Assembly (NCBI RefSeq): GCF_900100255.1
Contig: NZ_FMTS01000010.1
Span: 1 to 64,000 of the forward strand
Reading direction: 5' to 3'
DNA: 64,000 nucleotides
Source: Asticcacaulis taihuensis
Lineage (GTDB): Bacteria > Pseudomonadota > Alphaproteobacteria > Caulobacterales > Caulobacteraceae
Position 1 is the first letter of the stretch. Every line of letters begins with the position of its first letter. Both the position numbers and the translations under genes were made by a program. The notes beneath the pieces were generated by a model. That model ran no database searches and was not told the origin of the DNA. It saw only the letters and a program-made list of their open reading frames with translations. Of the stretch, positions 2 to 11,100 are shown in pieces.

Positions 2-1117
2 CGCCTGCTGACGGGCTCAGGCACCTTGGCCGGTCTGAATATGGAATACGACCCTGAGGGCCGTCTCTACCGGTACACCTACAATGGCTCGCAAAGGACT
101 TTCCTCTACGACGGCACCAATCTGATCGGAGAATATGATTCCGCCGGCAATATGCTAAGGCGTTATATGCACACCCTAGGCACGGATCAGCCGTGGGTGC
201 AGTTCGCGGGTGCGTCGACAGATGCAAGCAATGCCCTCTATCTCTATGCCAACTACCAGGGCAGCATCATCGCACAGGCTGACAGCACCGGCACTGTGGC
301 TCGGCTTTACAAGTACGGGCCTTATGGCGAGCCGCGAAACGATACGAATGTAGAAGACTGGAGCGGCAATCGTTTCCGTTACACGGGGCAGATGATTTTG
401 CCCGATGCTAAACTCTATTACTACAAAGCGCGCGTCTATGACCCTAACTTCGGACGGTTCCTCCAAACGGATCCAGTGGGGAGCACGGCAGATCTGGATT
501 TGTATGCTTATGTCGGCGGCGATCCAATCAATCGAAGTGATTCCACAGGTATGGTGCCTGGGTCCAATTTTTGTGGTGAAGGGGTTGGATGTACCAGTGA
601 TTTTGGTTGGGACAATGACCACCCCAAAATCGCCGCACCTGGCAATAGCACACAGGCCAATCCTGGCAGCTCACCTGGTATCGGCCACAATGGTGGTCCA
701 CCACTTGACGAAGAACCCGCGCGTCCTCTGCCTCCAACAACAATTTGGGGTGCAATCGGTGCAGCCTTAGTGTCGATTCCGGGCGATGCGCATGTGCCAA
801 CCCGAGAGGAAGTTGATACCCAAAATATGGGTATCATTCGCGAAGCACTTTCTGGCAAGCTTACAGGCAACACTGGTCTCCCGGGAGCTTATTCAATAGA
901 GTACGCGAACCATCTCGGCATGAGTTTTGTAGGTCCCAATGCGACCGAAATTGCCGGAGGGAAAGGCTTCGTAAGCGCTGATGGTCTACGCGTCTATCGT
1001 TTGCCTGTGCAAAAAACTTACGCGGGTCCTCATGGTAGAGTAGGAAATTTAGAAGCGCGTCCAACTGCCAGCGGACCATACACCGTTAATGTTCATATTG
1101 ATGTTTGGGTGCCATGA
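2..1117 (+). CDS. RHS-repeat polymorphic toxin, C-terminal part (5' end outside window)
   Basis: The frame is open from the first bases, so this is the 3' end of a larger gene. The first ~180 residues carry YD/RHS repeats and the RHS core end: RFRYTGQ, LYYYKARVYDPNFGRFLQTD, then DLYAYVGGDPINRSDSTG, whose P-x4-D-x2-G pattern is the usual self-cleavage boundary. The core ends near 552. The remaining ~187 residues form the variable C-terminal region: a linker with GIGHNGGPPLDEEP, a motif often seen before toxin domains, then a domain ending NVHIDVWVP that I do not recognise. RHS proteins form a shell enclosing a toxic C-terminus delivered to neighbouring cells, often by type VI secretion. The stop codon overlaps the start of an Imm8-like immunity gene, which supports a toxin role. 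The toxin activity is unknown. Confidence 0.88.
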   Translation, partial: RLLTGSGTLAGLNMEYDPEGRLYRYTYNGSQRTFLYDGTNLIGEYDSAGNMLRRYMHTLGTDQPWVQFAGASTDASNALYLYANYQGSIIAQADSTGTVARLYKYGPYGEPRNDTNVEDWSGNRFRYTGQMILPDAKLYYYKARVYDPNFGRFLQTDPVGSTADLDLYAYVGGDPINRSDSTGMVPGSNFCGEGVGCTSDFGWDNDHPKIAAPGNSTQANPGSSPGIGHNGGPPLDEEPARPLPPTTIWGAIGAALVSIPGDAHVPTREEVDTQNMGIIREALSGKLTGNTGLPGAYSIEYANHLGMSFVGPNATEIAGGKGFVSADGLRVYRLPVQKTYAGPHGRVGNLEARPTASGPYTVNVHIDVWVP

Positions 1118-1491
1118 TTAACCCGGTTATTAAAGATATCTCCTCCACCGACTGGAACGGCAGAAACTTCTCAAGGTCGCTACCAGAGTGTATCTGGTTC
1201 CATGTTGAGATAGGGGAACAAGGAAAGGATGGCGCAGATCTTTTCCAAATCGGGGTGTGCAATCTGCCTTGGGCGCAATCAAAATACCCCAACAGGGATT
1301 ATGTTCTTACCGACCAATCAATAGTTTTTGCTGAAAAATATGTCTTAGTGTTAGATCAGTTAAATGCGGAAAATTTAACGAACACGCTGGCGCGTTTAAT
1401 TGGAATGAGCGGCCCCTATTCTACGTGGCAAAACTTCGGAAAGGCCATGTCCGATTATATGATGTGGGAATACGAAGAAACCGGACAGTAG
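1114..1491 (+). CDS. Imm8-family immunity protein
   Basis: This 125-residue soluble protein resembles the Imm8 immunity family: an N-terminal VIKDISSTDW segment, then LPECIWFHVEIGEQGKDGADLF and a VCNLPW block. Imm8 proteins protect the producer from the C-terminal toxin encoded directly upstream. I chose ATG 1114 because it overlaps the toxin stop in an ATGA junction, typical of translationally coupled toxin-immunity pairs; a TTG at 1105 would add three residues. The family call rests on remembered sequence pattern rather than a search. It is the last intact gene before the probable island boundary at about 2484. Confidence 0.75.
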   Translation: MINPVIKDISSTDWNGRNFSRSLPECIWFHVEIGEQGKDGADLFQIGVCNLPWAQSKYPNRDYVLTDQSIVFAEKYVLVLDQLNAENLTNTLARLIGMSGPYSTWQNFGKAMSDYMMWEYEETGQ

Positions 1492-2484: not shown

Positions 2485-2989
2485 GAAACTTTTCCTTTTA
2501 AAATAAAAGACTTGACGATGCTGAACTGGCGTTGTCACACGGTTTTCGCCGTGTGCGACCGTCACGCCATCAGTGACTTGGACAACTTGTGGTCATAACC
2601 GAGGCGTCCTGAAAATTATTCTAAATATTCAATGGGAAATATTGCGTCAATCAAAATTATGAAGAGCGCAGATTTATCTTTATACATATATTTTGTGACA
2701 TATTTATGTATTTATTTCAATATTTAAATAAAATTATTACAGTCTTATAAAACTGGTTTACTCCAGATTTATTTTGAGACATCTAGTTATGGCTTCGCAT
2801 TAACAATTATGGTCTGGGCGAGACTTGCTTCCGAAACTTCCGACCTGTGTCGGAGGACGCGATCTTTTGCGTCTTCATGGCATGGGCAAGAGCTGGCAAG
2901 CTGCGTCCGCGTGACGGGGGCGACCTGTCATGAAACTGCGAAAGGAAGCATCGCATTTCAGGCCTATTGGACACGATTGGAGATATCGC
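2485..2989. other. Intergenic region between island border and TonB receptor
   Basis: No gene is supported. CACACGG/CCGTGTG forms a 7-bp hairpin at 2536-2555 without a strong T-run. The stretch around 2620-2790 is very AT-rich and probably holds the promoter of the receptor gene, but I cannot assign -35/-10 boxes reliably. GGAG at about 2979 lies in front of the chosen ATG 2990. Confidence 0.5.
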
Positions 2990-5845
2990 ATGCTTTCCCA
3001 ACTGTCGTTGCCCTCCCGGCGCGCCACTGATTTCCGTAACCGCATTCTCATGAGCGTTGGTCTCAGCGCGCTCTGCGCCCTGGTTCCCGCGCTGGCCTGC
3101 GCCCAAGACGTCGTTGCGACCGAGGCGTCCGCGGTGGACGCACCGACCGAAGTCGTCGTCACGGGCTTCCGCAAGTCGCTGGGGGCGGCGCGTGATCTGA
3201 AGAAAAAGTCGGATATCCAGAAGGACGTGATTGTCGCCGAAGACATGGCGAAATTTCCGGAACTGAACCTGGCCGAATCCCTGCAGCGCCTGCCGGGCGT
3301 GCAGATTACCCGTGAAGCCGGCGAAGGCCGCCGCATATCTTTGCGCGGCCTCGGTCCCGATTTCAGCCGCGTGCAGCTCAACGGCATGGAAGTGCTGGGC
3401 AATGTCGACTCCGCCCAGGACAGCCGTGGCCAGCGCACCCGCGACCGGGCGTTCGATTTCAACATTTTTGCCTCGGAACTCTTCTCCAAGGTCGAGGTGG
3501 AAAAGACCTTCCAGGCGTCCCAGAACGAAGGCGGCATGGCCGGCACGGTCGGCCTGTTCACGGGTAAGCCTTTCGACTATGGCCCCGGCCCCAAGGCCGC
3601 GATCGTGGCGAAGTTGGGGACAAATCAATATACCAAGGATGCGCAGCCGCGCGTCGCCGGCCTGTTCAGCTATAACTGGGACAACAAGTTCGGCGCTTTG
3701 ATCTCGGTTGCCTATACCAAGCGTGAGACCACCGAACAGGGCCACAATACCTATAATTACAGCCATCTGGGTGCAACAACCCTGGATGGGAATGGCAATC
3801 CTCAAGGCGATGCCTACAATCTGATTGCCAAAGGTCTGGACATCTCCCATCTGAGCGCCGCGCAGCAGACCCGCTTTCTGGCGGGCGACCTCTATTTCGC
3901 CGATGGTAACCGCATTTCCTCTTGGGATGCCAAGCTGGAGCGTCTGGGCGTGACGGCGGCCTTCCAGTGGAAGCCGACCGACAATATGGAGCTGACGCTT
4001 GACATGCTGCATGGCGAGGTCACGACCCACCGTGATGAACTGCACCTCGCCACGCGACCGCTGAACGGCTTCGGCTCCACCACCCTCGATGGCGCCAAGG
4101 GGGCGCCCTGGCCGGCGCAATTCCAGAATGGTTCGGTGCTGAACGATTTCAGGGTCGACAACAGCGGTTATGTCACTATGACCGATGTCAGCAATGTCAC
4201 CTTCGGCAGCGAACATCGCCGCGAACTGAACGAAAACCGCTTCAATCAGGCAGCCCTGACCCTGAAGTGGGATGTCTCCGATCGCCTGCTGATTGACGGT
4301 CACGTCGGTTACGAGAAGTCGACCTACGAAACGCCCTATGATGATAAGCTGTATATGCGCGCCAAGGGCAATCTGATCGCCGATTATGGCATCGACGGCA
4401 AATCGGCCTCGTTCTCTTATCCGAACTTTGATGCGACCGATCCCGCCAACTACGCGATGGATAACTTCTACTACCGCGCTTTCCACAATCAGTCGGAGTT
4501 GAAAGACGGCGTACTGAACGCGCGTTACACGCTGAATGACGTCTGGACCCTGCGGGGGGGCGTGGCTTACCACAAGTTCACGCAAGGCGGCGCCGACTAT
4601 TTCTATGACGGTGGCGTTAACGGTACTACCGGGGAGATGCGTGGCGATTCCGTTGCCGACATCACCTCGGTATTCACCAATGAATTCGGTTCGTGGCTGA
4701 TCGGCGACTATGATAAGGCGTTCAAGAAGTACGACGAATACCATCGCCTGGAAGCGAAGCCCGACGGTACGGGTGGGGTCATTCAGGACATTGAGAACGT
4801 CTATGAAACCTCGGAAGAAACCGTTTCCGGCTACGTGCAGGCGGACTGGGACAGCGAGCTTATGGGCAAGCGCTTCCGTGGTAATATCGGCCTGCGCAGC
4901 TATGAAACCAAGACCCACTCGACCGGTTGGATTCAGGGTGACAGTTACGCCTATCTGGGTACGACGGACGTGAAGGGCAGCTATTCCGGTATCCTGCCGG
5001 CTCTGAATACGGTTCTGGAACTGACGCCGGAAGTGCTTTTGCGCTTCTCCGCCACGCAAAACCTGAATCGTCCGGGACTGGGTTCGATGGCCGCCAAGGG
5101 CAGTGCTTTCAAAGACGAGGATAGCGGTAAGATCAGCGCATCTCGCGGCAATCCCGACCTCAAGCCCTATAAGGACAACACCCTCGACCTGGCGGTGGAA
5201 TATTATTTCGGCAAGGTGGGATTGTTGTCTGCAGGTGTGTTCCAGAAAAACATCACCAATTTCATCAGTTCGGCTGACTATACCGTCGAAGATGGTAATG
5301 CGCTCACCTTCGCGCAGGCGGGTATCCCGGCAGGCACGGTTCCGGGCGCAACGGCCGACACCCTCATTGATGAGTTCTCGATGCCGATCAACGTATCCGG
5401 CACCAAGAAGATTACCGGTGTGGAACTTGCGGCGCAAAGCCAGCTATCCTTCCTGCCGGCCCCGTTCGATAACTTCGGCGTGGTGGCAAACTACACCTAT
5501 GTCGATACGCCGCCTGAGATCACCGGCATATCGCAGACCAGCTATAACGCCACGCTCTATTATGAAACCAAGACCTGGGGCGCGCGCGCATCCATGAGCC
5601 ACCGCAGCAAGTGGTTCAGCGGACGCAACGCTTCGGTGATGAGCGCCGACACGCGGGGCTTCCAGGACTCGACCTACATAGATGCCGCGGCCTTCTGGAA
5701 CGTCAACACCAACCTCCAACTCACCCTGGATGCGGTTAATCTGACCAATCAGAAGGATACGCAGTTCTGGGGGCAAAACGAGTACCTCTATAATCAGAAC
5801 CAAAGCGGCACGACCTACATGGTCGGGCTCAGCTATAAATTCTGA
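2990..5845 (+). CDS. TonB-dependent outer-membrane receptor (Caulobacter/Xanthomonas type)
   Basis: This 951-residue protein has an N-terminal signal peptide (MSVGLSALCALVPALACAQ near residues 21-39), a plug domain from about residue 50 (EVVVTGFRKSL, then LAESLQRLPGVQITR and RRISLRGLGPDFSRVQLNG), and a long beta-barrel ending in TTYMVGLSYKF with the typical terminal aromatic residue. Such receptors import large ligands across the outer membrane using TonB/ExbBD energy. I chose ATG 2990 because GGAGA precedes it; the frame extends to 2930 and an internal ATG lies at 3050. The ligand is unknown. Two sulfotransferases and two hydroxylases follow on the same strand after a strong hairpin terminator, suggesting a functional link with reduced read-through. 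Confidence 0.9.
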   Translation: MLSQLSLPSRRATDFRNRILMSVGLSALCALVPALACAQDVVATEASAVDAPTEVVVTGFRKSLGAARDLKKKSDIQKDVIVAEDMAKFPELNLAESLQRLPGVQITREAGEGRRISLRGLGPDFSRVQLNGMEVLGNVDSAQDSRGQRTRDRAFDFNIFASELFSKVEVEKTFQASQNEGGMAGTVGLFTGKPFDYGPGPKAAIVAKLGTNQYTKDAQPRVAGLFSYNWDNKFGALISVAYTKRETTEQGHNTYNYSHLGATTLDGNGNPQGDAYNLIAKGLDISHLSAAQQTRFLAGDLYFADGNRISSWDAKLERLGVTAAFQWKPTDNMELTLDMLHGEVTTHRDELHLATRPLNGFGSTTLDGAKGAPWPAQFQNGSVLNDFRVDNSGYVTMTDVSNVTFGSEHRRELNENRFNQAALTLKWDVSDRLLIDGHVGYEKSTYETPYDDKLYMRAKGNLIADYGIDGKSASFSYPNFDATDPANYAMDNFYYRAFHNQSELKDGVLNARYTLNDVWTLRGGVAYHKFTQGGADYFYDGGVNGTTGEMRGDSVADITSVFTNEFGSWLIGDYDKAFKKYDEYHRLEAKPDGTGGVIQDIENVYETSEETVSGYVQADWDSELMGKRFRGNIGLRSYETKTHSTGWIQGDSYAYLGTTDVKGSYSGILPALNTVLELTPEVLLRFSATQNLNRPGLGSMAAKGSAFKDEDSGKISASRGNPDLKPYKDNTLDLAVEYYFGKVGLLSAGVFQKNITNFISSADYTVEDGNALTFAQAGIPAGTVPGATADTLIDEFSMPINVSGTKKITGVELAAQSQLSFLPAPFDNFGVVANYTYVDTPPEITGISQTSYNATLYYETKTWGARASMSHRSKWFSGRNASVMSADTRGFQDSTYIDAAAFWNVNTNLQLTLDAVNLTNQKDTQFWGQNEYLYNQNQSGTTYMVGLSYKF

Positions 5846-5865
5846 TAATCTGACCTGAAGGCTGC

Positions 5866-5899
5866 GCGCTCCTACCGTCTTTTCGGTAGGAGCGCTTTT
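5866..5899 (+). terminator. Intrinsic terminator after TonB receptor
   Basis: A perfect 12-bp stem (GCGCTCCTACCG with its complement at 5884-5895), a 6-base loop and a TTTT tract lie 21 bases after the receptor stop. It probably lowers expression of the downstream modification genes relative to the receptor. Confidence 0.8.
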
Positions 5900-5911
5900 C
5901 CCGTAAAAGAC

Positions 5912-6550
5912 ATGATCGTTTCTCATCGCCATCGCTTTATCTTCGCCGCTGTCCCGAAAACCGGTACACATGCTGTACGTCAGGCGTTGCGGGAGCACAT
6001 GAGCGACGAGGATGTCGAGCAGGTGGGGCTGTTCGTGAACAAGCGCTTCCCGTGGCAAGAGCTGGCGGCGATCCAGCATGGCCATCTGTCGCTCCAGCAG
6101 GTGCGGCCCTATATCGGCGAAGGTGCCTTCAATGGCTATTTCAAATTCGCCTTCGTGCGTAACCCCTTCGATCGCTTCGTCTCGTATTGCGCCTTCATGC
6201 TGCGCGGTGGTGACGATTTCCAGAACTGGCCGCGCGAGGCCATGCATCATTTTCTGTTCCGCGATCCTCCGGAAAGGCACATCCTGTTCCAGCCGCAGGC
6301 GTCACTATTGGTAAGCGAGGATGGTCAGACCCTGCTGACGGACAGCATCGGCCGTGTCGAAGACATGCAAGGCTCGTACGATTCCCTCTGTGCGCGGATC
6401 GGCATTCCGTCGCGCCCGCTGGACCGTGTCAACGGCACAAAGCGCGATGATTATCGCCGCTACTACGACCAGGCCCTGATTGACGGCGTGGCCGCGCGCT
6501 ATGCCCAGGATATTGACCTGTTTGGCTACAGCTTCGAGGGCTTGCGATGA
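5912..6550 (+). CDS. Small sulfotransferase family 2 protein
   Basis: This 212-residue cytoplasmic protein has the 5'-phosphosulfate loop near its start (VPKTGTHAVRQAL, residues ~14-26) and the 3'-phosphate motif FAFVRNPFDRFVSY at ~79-92. These bind the sulfate donor PAPS. It is close to Sulfotransfer_2 proteins, which sulfate carbohydrates or small molecules; the acceptor cannot be read from sequence. It starts only 66 bases after the receptor and shares an ATGA overlap with the next gene, so it opens a tightly packed set (sulfotransferase, hydroxylase, TPR-sulfotransferase, hydroxylase). That context makes a peptide or protein acceptor plausible, by inference only. Confidence 0.82.
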   Translation: MIVSHRHRFIFAAVPKTGTHAVRQALREHMSDEDVEQVGLFVNKRFPWQELAAIQHGHLSLQQVRPYIGEGAFNGYFKFAFVRNPFDRFVSYCAFMLRGGDDFQNWPREAMHHFLFRDPPERHILFQPQASLLVSEDGQTLLTDSIGRVEDMQGSYDSLCARIGIPSRPLDRVNGTKRDDYRRYYDQALIDGVAARYAQDIDLFGYSFEGLR

Positions 6551-7179
6551 CCGCCAGGCCCGCTGCCAATCCGCGCAAGACCGGTGGTGTCCGCCCCCTC
6601 GGTCCCGTTGATATCTCCACCCTGAAAGCGGCCGTACTGGCCATTCCGGAAGATGTCTGGGAGGTGGAAAATGCCGCCAAGCCGAACCGGTTCGACGTTC
6701 TGGATACGACGCGTCATATCGTCTTTCGTTTTATCGATGACACCCGTGACTGGCGCGGATCACACGATCTGCCGGCCTGGGCGCAGTGGCGCAACCTGTT
6801 GGAGCCAGTGCTTGCACAGGCGGTTAGTAATTATGGCTATGCGCGTGGCGTATTTCCGCGGGTAATGCTGGCCAGAATGTCGGCCGGTGGAATAATCCAT
6901 CCGCATATCGACGCCGGTCCGGCGGCGAAGTGGCCGCACAAGATACACGTTCCCCTGACGACAAACCCCGGCGTGGTGTCCTTTTTCGGCGGCGCCGAAC
7001 GCAGGTTACCGGCAGGCGAGGCGGTGGAGGTCGATAATCTCGGCCCGCACTGGGTGCGCAATGGCGGCGATAGCGACCGCATTCACCTGATCTTCGAATA
7101 TTACGACGCCGACCAGCCGGAGCCGGATTGGCTGGAGCCATTCCTGCTGTCCTGTTCTTTGGCAGGAGTGGCGCGATGA
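6547..7179 (+). CDS. Aspartyl/asparaginyl beta-hydroxylase-like protein 1
   Basis: A 210-residue protein with the double-stranded beta-helix pattern of the Asp/Asn hydroxylase family: MSAGGIIHPHIDAGPAAKWPHKIHVPL carries the proximal metal ligands (HPHID), and the distal His lies in GPHWVRNGG followed by RIHLIFEY. Such enzymes are Fe(II)/2-oxoglutarate oxygenases that hydroxylate Asp or Asn side chains in proteins or peptides. It has no signal peptide, so it acts in the cytoplasm. Its start overlaps the sulfotransferase stop (ATGA), and its stop overlaps the next start in the same way, indicating coupled translation. A second member of the family lies two genes downstream. Confidence 0.8.
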   Translation: MTARPAANPRKTGGVRPLGPVDISTLKAAVLAIPEDVWEVENAAKPNRFDVLDTTRHIVFRFIDDTRDWRGSHDLPAWAQWRNLLEPVLAQAVSNYGYARGVFPRVMLARMSAGGIIHPHIDAGPAAKWPHKIHVPLTTNPGVVSFFGGAERRLPAGEAVEVDNLGPHWVRNGGDSDRIHLIFEYYDADQPEPDWLEPFLLSCSLAGVAR

Positions 7180-9104
7180 CCATTACGGATATCGACGCCG
7201 ATTTAAAAGACCGCGACGCCTTGTTGCAGCAGGCTCGTCACCTGCGCGTCAGCGGGCGCCTGCCCGCGGCCCTGGCCGTTCTGGCGCGGCTGGAGGCGGC
7301 ATATCCCCGTTTCAGTCGCCTTTACCAGGAGCGTGCACATTGCCATATCGGGCTTGGAGATGCGCCTGCGGCCTTGGCCGCGCTGCACGCGGCGGTACGC
7401 CTGAATCCGACCCTGCCGGCAAGCTGGGACATGCTGGAACAGCTCAGCAGACGTGCAGGCGATACCGCCCAGGCGACCATGGCGGCACGACATCTCAGCA
7501 CTCTGAAGCAGTTGCCCAGGGAAGTGGTGATGGCCAACAGCCTGCTGGCCGATGGCGACCTTGGCCCGGCGGAGCGGGTCATCCGTGACTACCTGCGCCG
7601 GGCGGGCGGAAATGTCGGTGCGCTGCACCTGCTGGCGCGAATCCGCCAGGAAAGCGGCGCGACGGAAGAGGCCGAGACTCTGCTGGAAGCGGTGCTCGCC
7701 AACGCGCCGGATTATCATGAGGCGCGGCTGGATTACGCCATGGTGCTGTTGCAGCAACAGAAGCACCTGCCTGCGCGGCAACAGGCCGGGCACCTGCTCG
7801 CCTACGATCCGGACAACCGCGATTATCTCAAGCAATATGCCGCCGCCTGTATCGGCCTTGGCGACTACGAACCTTTGATCGCCATCTATGACCGGCTGCT
7901 GGCCGGGGAGGCGCTATCCGCCGCCGAAATCGCCGATTTGCGGCTGTGGCGGGCGGCCGCCCTGAAGATCACCGGCAACCAGGCGGAGGCCATCGCCGAC
8001 TATCGCGCCGCGCTGGAGGCCCTGCCCAGCCACGGCGCCGCCTGGTTTGGACTTGCCAATCTGAAAACCTGGCGCTTCAGCGACGACGACATCGTACGCA
8101 TGAGGGCGGCGGAATCCGCGACCACTCTTCAGGACATGGATCGCGTCTACCTATGTTTCGCCCTGGGCAAGGCGCTGGAGGACCGGGCCGAATTTGCGGG
8201 CTCGTGGGCCTATTATGCCAAGGGCAATGCGGTGCGTCGTCAAACCGCCCGCTATCGCCCGGAAGTGGCGGAGGCCGCTCTCGCCCGGCTTAAATCCGTC
8301 TTCACCGCTGAATTTTTCGCCGAACGCGCCGGCTGGGGGCTGGCAGATCCGGCCCCGATCTTCGTCCTCGGGTTGCCGCGTTCCGGCTCTACCCTGATCG
8401 AACAGATCCTGGCCTCCCATTCGCAGGTCGAGGGCACGCAGGAACTGACCCTGATCGGACGCTATGCCGCCGAGCTGTGCGGCCAGGACCCGGAATGCGG
8501 CCTGCCGCTGGATATCGAGGCCCTGCGGCACCTGTCCCCGGACGCGGCGCGCGCGCTGGGCGAGCGTTTCCTTGCCGAGACCCGCACCTTCCGGCGGCTG
8601 AGCAGGCCGTTCTTCATCGACAAGATGCCTAACAATTTCTGGCACATCGGCCTGATCCATCTGATCCTGCCACACGCCACCATCATCGATATCCGGCGCG
8701 AACCCATGGGCTGCGGTTTTAGCAATCTCAAGCAATTGTTCGGAACCATAAACCAGGAATTTTCCTACGATCCTCTCCATATGGGCCGCCACTATCGCGC
8801 CTATCTCGACCTGATGCGCCATTGGGACAAGGTGCTGCCGGGCCGGGTGTTGCGCGTGCATTATGAGGATGTGGTTGGTGATATCGAAGGCAGCGTGCAG
8901 CGAATGATGAGGCATTGCGGCCTGCCTTTCGAACCGGCTTGCCTGGCCTTCCACGAGACACGGCGCAGCGTGCGCACCCCCAGTTCCGAGCAGGTGCGCC
9001 GGCCAATCAACCGTGAGGGACTCGATCAATGGCAAAACTTCGCGCCGTGGCTGGAGCCCCTGAAAGAGGCTCTGGGGGGCGCTCTGAACACCTACAGGCT
9101 TTGA
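7176..9104 (+). CDS. TPR-repeat sulfotransferase
   Basis: This 642-residue protein joins an N-terminal array of tetratricopeptide repeats (about residues 10-330) to a C-terminal sulfotransferase domain. The PAPS loop is APIFVLGLPRSGSTLIEQIL, followed by an FIDKMPNNFWHIGLI block and IIDIRREPMGCGFSNLKQLF; all are typical of bacterial TPR-sulfotransferases related to protein-tyrosine sulfotransferases. The TPR part probably binds a protein or peptide substrate. I chose ATG 7176, which overlaps the upstream stop and follows GGAG; the frame extends to 7128. It is the largest enzyme of the cassette and the best hint that the target is proteinaceous. Confidence 0.87.
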   Translation: MTITDIDADLKDRDALLQQARHLRVSGRLPAALAVLARLEAAYPRFSRLYQERAHCHIGLGDAPAALAALHAAVRLNPTLPASWDMLEQLSRRAGDTAQATMAARHLSTLKQLPREVVMANSLLADGDLGPAERVIRDYLRRAGGNVGALHLLARIRQESGATEEAETLLEAVLANAPDYHEARLDYAMVLLQQQKHLPARQQAGHLLAYDPDNRDYLKQYAAACIGLGDYEPLIAIYDRLLAGEALSAAEIADLRLWRAAALKITGNQAEAIADYRAALEALPSHGAAWFGLANLKTWRFSDDDIVRMRAAESATTLQDMDRVYLCFALGKALEDRAEFAGSWAYYAKGNAVRRQTARYRPEVAEAALARLKSVFTAEFFAERAGWGLADPAPIFVLGLPRSGSTLIEQILASHSQVEGTQELTLIGRYAAELCGQDPECGLPLDIEALRHLSPDAARALGERFLAETRTFRRLSRPFFIDKMPNNFWHIGLIHLILPHATIIDIRREPMGCGFSNLKQLFGTINQEFSYDPLHMGRHYRAYLDLMRHWDKVLPGRVLRVHYEDVVGDIEGSVQRMMRHCGLPFEPACLAFHETRRSVRTPSSEQVRRPINREGLDQWQNFAPWLEPLKEALGGALNTYRL

Positions 9105-9105
9105 T

Positions 9106-10047
9106 ATGAAGTTGTCGCAACCCTTCTTTCACCTTCCAGTGCTTTTCGACGTGACGCGCCTGCAGGCCGAGGTCGCCGCCTTGCCAACCGAGGCCTGGGT
9201 TTCGCATCCAGACAGCCTGCCTGGCAACAGTGCAGCACGCCTGATCAGCGCCAAAGGGGCCGAGACGGATTCCGTCCACGGCCAAATGTTGCCTACGCCA
9301 TGGTTGAAGGCTATGCCCTATGTCCGTCAAGTCCTGGCCGGCTTCGGCGTGGTATGGAGCCGATCACGCCTGATGCGCCTGGCCCCAGGCGCAGGTGTGC
9401 CCGAGCACGCAGACACCAATTATCACTGGCACACGCGGGTGCGGGTGCATATTCCTGTTTTTACGAATGAAGCCGTACGTTTCCATTGTGATGGACAAGC
9501 GGTGCATATGGCGGCCGGGGAAGCCTGGATATTCGACAACTGGCGCCGGCATCATGTCGAAAACGGATCCGGCGAGGCGCGCATTCATTTGGTTGCCGAT
9601 ACCACCGGAACAGCGGCTTTCTGGCAATTTGCGACCGGTCCAATACCGCCGCGTAACCAGTGGCGCACCCTGGCCTTTAATCCTTTGGCCAATTCGCAAT
9701 TGCTGACCGAAACCAATGAACGCGCACCTGTCATGCCCGCGGCCGAGGTGCAGTGGCTGGTCGACGATCTGCGAGCAGAACTGACAGTTGCGATCGATAC
9801 ACCTGAAGCCAGAACACGCGCCCAGCGGTTCAGCCTCTTGCTGGAGAGTTTCGTTCAGGACTGGCGCCAGCTTTGTGCTTTGCATGGTACGAGCGGGCAG
9901 GGGCGGGCCGAGTTCCTGCGCCTGATTGGTGCCGTGCACGAAGCCTCACTACCACTGGCCAATGGCCTTGTCATGCGCGCCAACGATATCGGGGCGCTGA
10001 ACGTGCTGGAAAGGCGTGTGCTGCAACACTTGCTTGCCGATAGCTGA
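9106..10047 (+). CDS. Aspartyl/asparaginyl beta-hydroxylase-like protein 2
   Basis: A 313-residue protein starting one base after the TPR-sulfotransferase stop. The catalytic core is visible in the N-terminal half: RLAPGAGVPEHADTNYHWH with an H-x-D ligand pair, RVRVHIPVFTN, then GEAWIFDNWRRHHVENG with the distal His and RIHLV for 2-oxoglutarate. The last ~120 residues form an extra, mostly helical region missing from the 210-residue paralogue upstream. The two hydroxylases may act on different residues or substrates. The function is inferred from the family; no substrate is known. Confidence 0.8.
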   Translation: MKLSQPFFHLPVLFDVTRLQAEVAALPTEAWVSHPDSLPGNSAARLISAKGAETDSVHGQMLPTPWLKAMPYVRQVLAGFGVVWSRSRLMRLAPGAGVPEHADTNYHWHTRVRVHIPVFTNEAVRFHCDGQAVHMAAGEAWIFDNWRRHHVENGSGEARIHLVADTTGTAAFWQFATGPIPPRNQWRTLAFNPLANSQLLTETNERAPVMPAAEVQWLVDDLRAELTVAIDTPEARTRAQRFSLLLESFVQDWRQLCALHGTSGQGRAEFLRLIGAVHEASLPLANGLVMRANDIGALNVLERRVLQHLLADS

Positions 10048-10173: not shown

Positions 10174-11100
10174 ATGACGCATAACCGCAGGCAGGTGATA
10201 GCTGGCGCTTCGGTGATGGCCATGGGCAGGACGCTCGAAGCCTATGCCGGCCCGGCATCCTCTCGATCTATTATCATTGTGGGTGATTGGGGCCGCGACA
10301 GCGCGCCCTACCAGCGCGATGTCGCGCGCCAGATGGACAGTGTTGCCGGGAAAATGGACTGCGCGGGCGTTATATCTGTAGGCGACAACTTCTACGAGGA
10401 TGGCGTCCAGTCGGTCGATGACGTCAAATGGCGGACGTCGTTCGAAGACATCTATTGCGGCCCGAACCTCAAATCGCTGCCGTGGTTTGTCGCACTCGGC
10501 AATCATGATTATGGCGGCGTGCCGCAGGCTCAGGTCGATTACACGCAGCATAGCGACCGCTGGTGCATGCCGGCGCGCTATTTCAAGATCGGCTCCAGCC
10601 AGCTTGGCGTACCGGATACTGATCTGTTCGTCATAGACACCAATGCGCTGATCGCCGAAAACTTCGAGGGGAATGGCCGGATGGCGGTCAATCTGCGCAG
10701 CCAGGACGCCAGCGCGCAACTGGCCTGGCTTGAACGCGAGCTGGCCAGCTCCGGTGCGCGGCACAAGCTTGTGGCGGGACACCATCCGATCTTTTCGGGC
10801 GGAAGCCTGCACGGGGACACGCCGGACCTGATCAGAACCCTGCTGCCGATGTTCAAAGAGCATGGCGTTTCGGCCTATCTGGCGGGGCACGATCATGACC
10901 TGCAACATATCATATCTGACGGACTGCACTGCATATGCGCGGGCGCAGGCTGCGAGGCGCGCCCTGTCCGTATGGTGAACGGGACGCAATTTTGTGCTTC
11001 GAGTCCGGGCTTTGGCATTCTGACAAAGGCTTCGGACCGCCTTGAGCTTCAGTTTAGGGATGACCTTGGCAAGATACTTTATCGGTCTTTGCTGTCCTAG
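10174..11100 (+). CDS. Purple-acid-phosphatase-like metallophosphoesterase (probable Tat export)
   Basis: This 308-residue protein contains the full metallophosphatase motif set: GDWG, GDNFYEDG, GNHDY, GHHP and GHDHDLQ. Spacing and length resemble type 5 (tartrate-resistant) acid phosphatases, which use a Fe/metal centre to release phosphate from esters. The N-terminus NRRQVIAGASVMAMG has the RR and short hydrophobic run of a Tat or twin-arginine-like signal, suggesting periplasmic location. GGAG lies before ATG 10174. It follows the hydroxylase after 126 bases, so it may belong to the receptor cassette or be independent. Confidence 0.8.
   Translation: MTHNRRQVIAGASVMAMGRTLEAYAGPASSRSIIIVGDWGRDSAPYQRDVARQMDSVAGKMDCAGVISVGDNFYEDGVQSVDDVKWRTSFEDIYCGPNLKSLPWFVALGNHDYGGVPQAQVDYTQHSDRWCMPARYFKIGSSQLGVPDTDLFVIDTNALIAENFEGNGRMAVNLRSQDASAQLAWLERELASSGARHKLVAGHHPIFSGGSLHGDTPDLIRTLLPMFKEHGVSAYLAGHDHDLQHIISDGLHCICAGAGCEARPVRMVNGTQFCASSPGFGILTKASDRLELQFRDDLGKILYRSLLS

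Follow-up and report, generated by a model that had tools for sequence, protein, structure and literature searches.

A conserved cassette of a TonB-dependent receptor, two sulfotransferases and two hydroxylases in a phosphorus-scavenging context in Asticcacaulis taihuensis and its relatives

Introduction

RaxST is a bacterial sulfotransferase dependent on 3'-phosphoadenosine 5'-phosphosulfate (PAPS) that acts on a polypeptide before its export, and its substrate RaxX, a small peptide that is secreted, provides the known bacterial precedent for the sulfation of tyrosine. Here we describe a five-gene cassette in Asticcacaulis taihuensis, located within the first 64,000 nucleotides of contig NZ_FMTS01000010.1 (assembly GCF_900100255.1; this whole stretch is the window), in which a TonB-dependent receptor (TBDR) gene is followed by genes for two sulfotransferases and two hydroxylases. 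The proposed PAPS-dependent sulfation of a polypeptide prior to export would be common to this cassette and the Xanthomonas RaxST-RaxX system, but the cassette is without a RaxX-like peptide or an exporter, and one of its sulfotransferases, TPRST, has a long tetratricopeptide repeat (TPR) domain, its gene being linked to those of a TBDR and of 2-oxoglutarate (2OG) hydroxylases. No publication on this combination of receptor, hydroxylases and sulfotransferases was found in the literature searched.

Results

The genes for the TBDR, ST2, AspH1, TPRST and AspH2 lie in this order (Table 1), with the families and overlaps that had been assigned to them in the initial annotation of the window, and with intact catalytic motifs. 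The ST2/AspH1 and AspH1/TPRST junctions are ATGA overlaps and the AspH2 start is one base past the TPRST stop, while the open frame of the TBDR begins at 2930, upstream of the 2990 start. AspH1 and AspH2 are the sole PF05118 genes of the 3.97-Mb genome and ST2 its sole PF03567 gene and, because the same gene order also recurs in all full-cassette loci, the clustering is beyond chance.

AspH1 was searched for in 199 Caulobacteraceae genomes and the surrounding regions were then read. Wherever the contig extends over the surroundings of a close AspH1 orthologue, the order is TBDR-ST2-AspH1-TPRST-AspH2. The TBDR clade (at least 66% identity) is found in 26 of these genomes, 25 of which encode AspH1, and in the sole exception (G129) the receptor gene runs into the end of its contig. 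Outside the clade, the next TBDR homologues are only 51% identical. A scan of named genomes found 147 loci. The 80 retained from it comprise full cassettes in Caulobacter, Phenylobacterium, Brevundimonas, Asticcacaulis, Sphingomonas, Sphingobium, Novosphingobium and Erythrobacter-like genomes, as well as lone ST2-AspH1 pairs in Lysobacter and some Sphingomonas. The same five-gene order is found in 58 distinct full-cassette loci from Caulobacterales and Sphingomonadales. The initial annotation had made its proposal of a joint modification and uptake system hinge on co-occurrence in relatives, and conserved co-occurrence is decisively found by neighbourhood and co-occurrence analysis: the cluster is genuine and strongly conserved, in an unexpected location.

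Each of the four enzymes retains the signature of its family. In ST2 the PKTGTH and RNPxxRxxS motifs are at least 98% conserved among 98 sequences. AspH1 and AspH2 match PF05118 above the Pfam cut-off and possess the 2OG/Fe site of the HxD...H...R type, with H120, D122, H168 and R178 invariant in AspH1 and H101, D103, H149 and R159 invariant in AspH2. Their description as Asp/Asn-hydroxylase-like holds as regards PF05118 membership, but the Asp/Asn specificity derives from the family name only and is putative. AspH2 scores 18.9 bits against the lipid A hydroxylase LpxO, for which the curated NCBIfam cut-off is 500, and LpxO and other NCBIfam assignments for AspH1 and AspH2 were rejected with scores below the cut-offs.

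TPRST comprises an N-terminal TPR superhelix like that of O-GlcNAc transferase (OGT) and a C-terminal domain like that of the tyrosylprotein sulfotransferases (TPSTs), with profile matches of 5e-40 to OGT TPRs and 2e-13 to TPSTs. Its AlphaFold2 model has a mean predicted local distance difference test (pLDDT) score of 89.9, and all sulfotransferases in the top 50 PDB matches are TPSTs. The PRSGS loop (P401, R402, G404 and T406) is invariant, the TPST fold and PAPS-binding motifs are present, and the invariant E423 and K483, whose spacing from the PAPS-loop arginine matches, are candidate equivalents of the catalytic base E99 and the catalytic lysine K158 of TPST2. The likeness to protein-tyrosine sulfotransferases first noted from sequence is thus borne out by both profile and fold. 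In several relatives' genomes a PF13469 sulfotransferase forms the C-terminal part of a fusion with AspH2; this domain is absent from the AspH2 of the window. The fusion suggests that hydroxylation supplies the sulfate acceptor, or at least that the two activities share one substrate. Candidates for a conserved unknown partner beside these fusions were discarded, as the open reading frames (ORFs) looked like wrong-frame readings.

The flanks of the 58 full-cassette loci were clustered and the clusters then named. The most frequent neighbours are relatives of a phosphocholine-specific phospholipase C (PC-PLC, 35 loci), PhnR (32), a Phn-HD oxygenase (31), a TIGR03364 FAD oxidase (23), PhnX (21), a nucleotide-pyrophosphatase-type phosphodiesterase (15) and a phosphatidylinositol-specific phospholipase C (8). 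TIGR03364 proteins include PbfD, which has been shown to oxidise N-methyl-aminoethylphosphonate and aminoethylphosphonate (PMC10590968). At least one gene for phosphonate or phospholipid phosphorus adjoins 53 of the 58 full cassettes, compared with none of 28 loci containing only the ST2-AspH1 pair, and a Phn-HD gene is present in all 26 cassette genomes but in only 35 of 173 others (Fisher p=5e-16, phylogeny ignored). In the window a single phosphoesterase is all that is left of the phosphorus neighbours (Table 1); it fits a phosphorus-scavenging neighbourhood and is outside the conserved five-gene unit.

TBDRs and phospholipase C are reportedly members of the Caulobacter PhoB regulon (PMC11208175), and a weak PhoB-box-like direct repeat is located upstream of the TBDR. 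Such repeats are enriched among 55 upstream regions, with matches to at least 12 of 14 consensus positions in 31% (1.3% of shuffles) and to at least 11 in 62% (9% of shuffles), but not upstream of stand-alone ST2; a promoter scan was uninformative. The cassette may be under PhoB control. Taking together the phosphorus-gene neighbours, the co-occurrence with Phn-HD and the PhoB-box enrichment, the TBDR most likely serves in organophosphorus uptake, an assignment that we regard as well supported by context, and this phosphorus context of the cassette is new information.

Between the receptor and enzyme genes of the window is a terminator-like hairpin (Table 1), which the automatic terminator scan overlooked because its T-run is just four bases long. 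Hairpins of differing sequence occupy the equivalent place in most relatives, with z<-2.5 in 41 of 56 receptor-enzyme gaps. The hairpin is a probable attenuator, and its retention suggests that the enzyme genes are probably reached by read-through and expressed at a lower level than an abundant receptor. The original picture of a receptor followed by four adjacent or overlapping genes stands, although it missed both the hairpin that separates the receptor from the enzymes and the phosphorus-scavenging context of the five genes.

TBDRs of at least six unrelated clades have enzymes related to those of the cassette next to them; the linked clades are less than 35% identical and differ in presumed ligand. 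In the type II loci (L064, L065, L068-L070, and part in L066), a TBDR is divergent from TPRST, with which a small sulfotransferase and AspH are found, and fucosidases lie alongside. A SecB-like gene follows the type II enzymes in L064 (where PF02556 was confirmed), L065 and L070, and L065 alone has a tryptophan halogenase (PF04820) after it; these loci are possibly a broader receptor-modification operon. An unrelated TBDR is the same-strand neighbour of an AspH2 relative in 8 of 12 pair-only genomes. Among 20 TPRST loci outside the cassette, 10 have a TBDR within about 7 kb, several of them abutting, compared with 1 of 19 control stretches (p=0.002), a small, hand-placed set whose significance test ignores phylogeny.

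Several further arrangements were seen. Lysobacter-group genomes have a TBDR and then an AspH2 relative on the same strand (L213:4804-8779, also L214-L220), with a separate sulfotransferase gene next in L219. The TBDR reading frame is interrupted in L043 (4494-7285) and L110 (4446-7286), and TPRST is split in L113 (8597-10521), through either assembly error or a real break. Loci L181, L182 and L183 of Caulobacter-like genomes have tandem TBDR pairs about 36% identical to the TBDR of the window, and in L181 and L183 two small conserved genes come next. Elsewhere in the window genome, the phosphonate operon (G000:C14; L196:2059-12249) includes PhnR, Phn-HD, a PC-PLC-like protein, TIGR03364, PhnX, a DUF5690 transporter and its own different TBDR, and a run of tryptophan-halogenase-like genes (L240, G000:C9, 10395-14001) lies near another TPR-sulfotransferase. 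At the contig end of the window (26-1491) are an Rhs-like C-terminal fragment and then an Imm8 immunity gene, where the closest relative, L043, has phosphonate genes.

Table 1. Positions of the cassette genes, associated elements and type II loci
Feature	Position	Strand	Match or score
PhoB-box-like direct repeat CTGTCATGAAACTGCGAA, upstream of the TBDR start at 2990	2925-2942	+	11/14 consensus positions, weak
TBDR (TonB-dependent receptor; signal peptide, plug, barrel)	2990-5845	+	TIGR01782 class, E=2e-188
Terminator-like hairpin (12 pairs, then TTTT), between TBDR and enzyme genes	5866-5895	+	~-26 kcal/mol, z=-4
ST2 (small PAPS sulfotransferase)	5912-6550	+	PF03567, 6e-14
AspH1 (PF05118 2-oxoglutarate/Fe(II) hydroxylase)	6547-7179	+	PF05118, 2e-9
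TPRST (N-terminal OGT-like TPR superhelix, C-terminal TPST-like sulfotransferase domain)	7176-9104	+	PF13469, 3e-45, plus TPRs
AspH2 (second PF05118 hydroxylase)	9106-10047	+	PF05118, 1e-14
Calcineurin-like (acid-phosphatase type) phosphoesterase, adjoining the cassette	10174-11100	+	
Type II locus	L064:2625-9288		
Type II locus	L065:2567-10800		
Type II locus	L070:2377-9249		

Discussion

We tentatively interpret the cassette as a phosphate-starvation-type outer-membrane uptake locus in which the pairs of hydroxylase and sulfotransferase may modify, as their most likely target, the receptor precursor. The TBDR would take up an organophosphorus compound derived from a phosphonate or a phospholipid headgroup, and the four presumably cytoplasmic enzymes would act as hydroxylase and sulfotransferase pairs that place hydroxyls and sulfate on a polypeptide, most likely the unfolded receptor precursor prior to Sec export. 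The TPR domain of TPRST would grip the chain while its TPST-like domain moves sulfate from PAPS to tyrosine or to newly made hydroxyls. The conserved unit, the intact catalytic motifs, the phosphorus-gene context and co-occurrence, the hydroxylase-sulfotransferase fusion and the recurrent pairing with unrelated TBDRs are the observations from which we infer the ligand, the polypeptide substrate, the receptor as target, the order of the reactions and the modified residue.

SecB keeps exported precursors unfolded. Given this role, and with a TBDR common to all of the pairings, modification of a precursor in the cytosol is the most economical reading. Of the targets put forward in the initial annotation, which supposed that all four enzymes act on one, it is the receptor that gains support, from the pairing with at least six unrelated TBDR clades, the SecB-like gene in one variant and the OGT-TPR plus TPST architecture of TPRST; from sequence comparison we favour, with moderate confidence, receptor-directed modification over modification of a peptide or ligand. 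It is also plausible, if slightly more speculative than our interpretation of the cassette itself, that a general system in alpha- and gammaproteobacteria hydroxylates and sulfates TBDR precursors in the cytoplasm before export and so tunes ligand binding at the surface, with one variant possibly adding halogenation and aided by a dedicated SecB.

Several observations weigh against our interpretation of the cassette, including the receptor as the target. Linkage, strict in full cassettes, is not a general rule: Lysobacter and some Sphingomonas have the ST2-AspH1 pair by itself and no orthologous TBDR in the same genome, and so at least this pair has a target not requiring this receptor. The neighbours of the stand-alone pair in Lysobacter are conserved and receptor-free but offer no functional clue, and two AspH2-sulfotransferase fusions inspected closely (L073 and L074) have no recognised TBDR nearby; neither pair, then, needs an adjacent receptor, and the target is either in trans or a different one. 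The remaining 10 of the 20 TPRST loci outside the cassette are likewise without a nearby TBDR. Correlation of receptor and enzyme distance matrices was only moderate (r 0.36-0.54), was no better than with neighbouring phn genes and did not discriminate. Clade-specific invariant residues of the TBDR are rich in tyrosine (10 of 64), which an aromatic binding pocket explains equally well, and few invariant tyrosines are in strongly acidic surroundings. For AspH1, the solved fold nearest to the model (pLDDT 91) belongs to L-proline cis-4-hydroxylase, whose substrate is free L-proline, ahead of those of AspH, prolyl hydroxylases and others. The phn operon of the window genome is on contig C14 beside a different TBDR, and the Fisher values overstate the evidence because the loci are related by descent.

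Modification of the imported ligand, another of the targets first suggested, retains some probability but is unlikely. The enzymes would act after uptake on the ligand or its organic remainder, for example an aminophosphonate or lipid remainder that is hydroxylated and then sulfated for detoxification or export, in keeping with the organophosphorus neighbours, with the full co-occurrence with the Phn-HD oxygenase, whose family oxidises hydroxylated phosphonates, and with L-proline cis-4-hydroxylase, a free-amino-acid enzyme, as the best solved-structure match of both AspH1 and AspH2. However, comparable sets of enzymes are found with a TBDR in fucose-glycan surroundings and with a different TBDR in Lysobacter; the pair of ST2 and AspH1 persists without phosphorus genes; and a long TPR domain is unexpected in a small-molecule sulfotransferase. 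One shared ligand is improbable in any case, since in one variant the genes beside the receptor indicate organophosphorus and in another a fucosylated glycan.

Less likely again, the enzymes could build a hydroxylated, sulfated envelope component (a lipid, lipopolysaccharide or secreted polymer) that spares phosphate in starvation, with the receptor merely co-regulated. The strict linkage of the five genes, the recurrent pairing with unrelated TBDRs and the SecB-like gene of type II loci all argue otherwise, and the match of AspH2 to LpxO, which together with the phosphate-starvation context and the conserved receptor-free neighbourhood of ST2-AspH1 in Lysobacter would speak for such a role, is far under the cut-off. 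We consider it quite improbable that the target is some other exported protein, such as a secreted phospholipase or phosphatase, or outer-membrane proteins generally. Stand-alone pairs in genomes without this receptor would be accounted for, the TPST-like domain speaks for a polypeptide target of some sort, and relatives of PC-PLC are the most frequent neighbours (35 of 58 loci); yet several full cassettes have neither PC-PLC nor phosphatase genes while the receptor is constant, and the type II and Lysobacter pairings have just a TBDR in common. A peptide encoded at the locus, hydroxylated and sulfated as RaxX is by RaxST and then re-imported, has the bacterial precedent in its favour but is very improbable, and the co-expressed peptide envisaged earlier finds no counterpart: no ORF of 20-99 amino acids within about 700 bp on either side of the cassette is conserved in more than 8 of the 58 loci, whose flanks also show no recurrent exporter gene.

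Should the receptor prove to be the target, outer-membrane nutrient receptors would constitute a new class of sulfated bacterial proteins, their decoration would be a protein modification of a kind new to bacteria, one operon would couple hydroxylation to sulfation, and the orphan TPR-sulfotransferases and PF05118 hydroxylases of environmental proteobacteria would have a testable role. Even with another target, the cassette represents an uncharacterised enzyme set tied to the acquisition of phosphonate and phospholipid phosphorus in freshwater and soil bacteria.

The components of the cassette can each be compared with characterised proteins. The catalytic domain of TPRST has the fold of animal TPST1 and TPST2 (TM-score ~0.55-0.68 normalised by TPST length), but TPRST is presumably cytoplasmic, is fused to TPRs and is about 20% identical. 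As in O-GlcNAc transferase, a TPR domain is joined to a transferase, and OGT is the top fold match of the TPR part; such TPR likeness is common among TPR proteins, however, and TPRST is predicted to transfer sulfate rather than GlcNAc. AspH1 and AspH2 share the PF05118 fold and HxD...H...R site with human AspH, L-proline cis-4-hydroxylase and LpxO, although their sequences assign them no substrate and proline cis-4-hydroxylase is nearer in fold than human AspH. At the level of the locus, a parallel is found in organophosphorus uptake genes of the Caulobacter PhoB regulon (PMC11208175): both have TBDRs with phospholipase C, other phosphorus-mobilising enzymes and PhoB-box-like sites, the last enriched among relatives of the cassette but weak in the window; the four-gene hydroxylase-sulfotransferase module sets the cassette apart.

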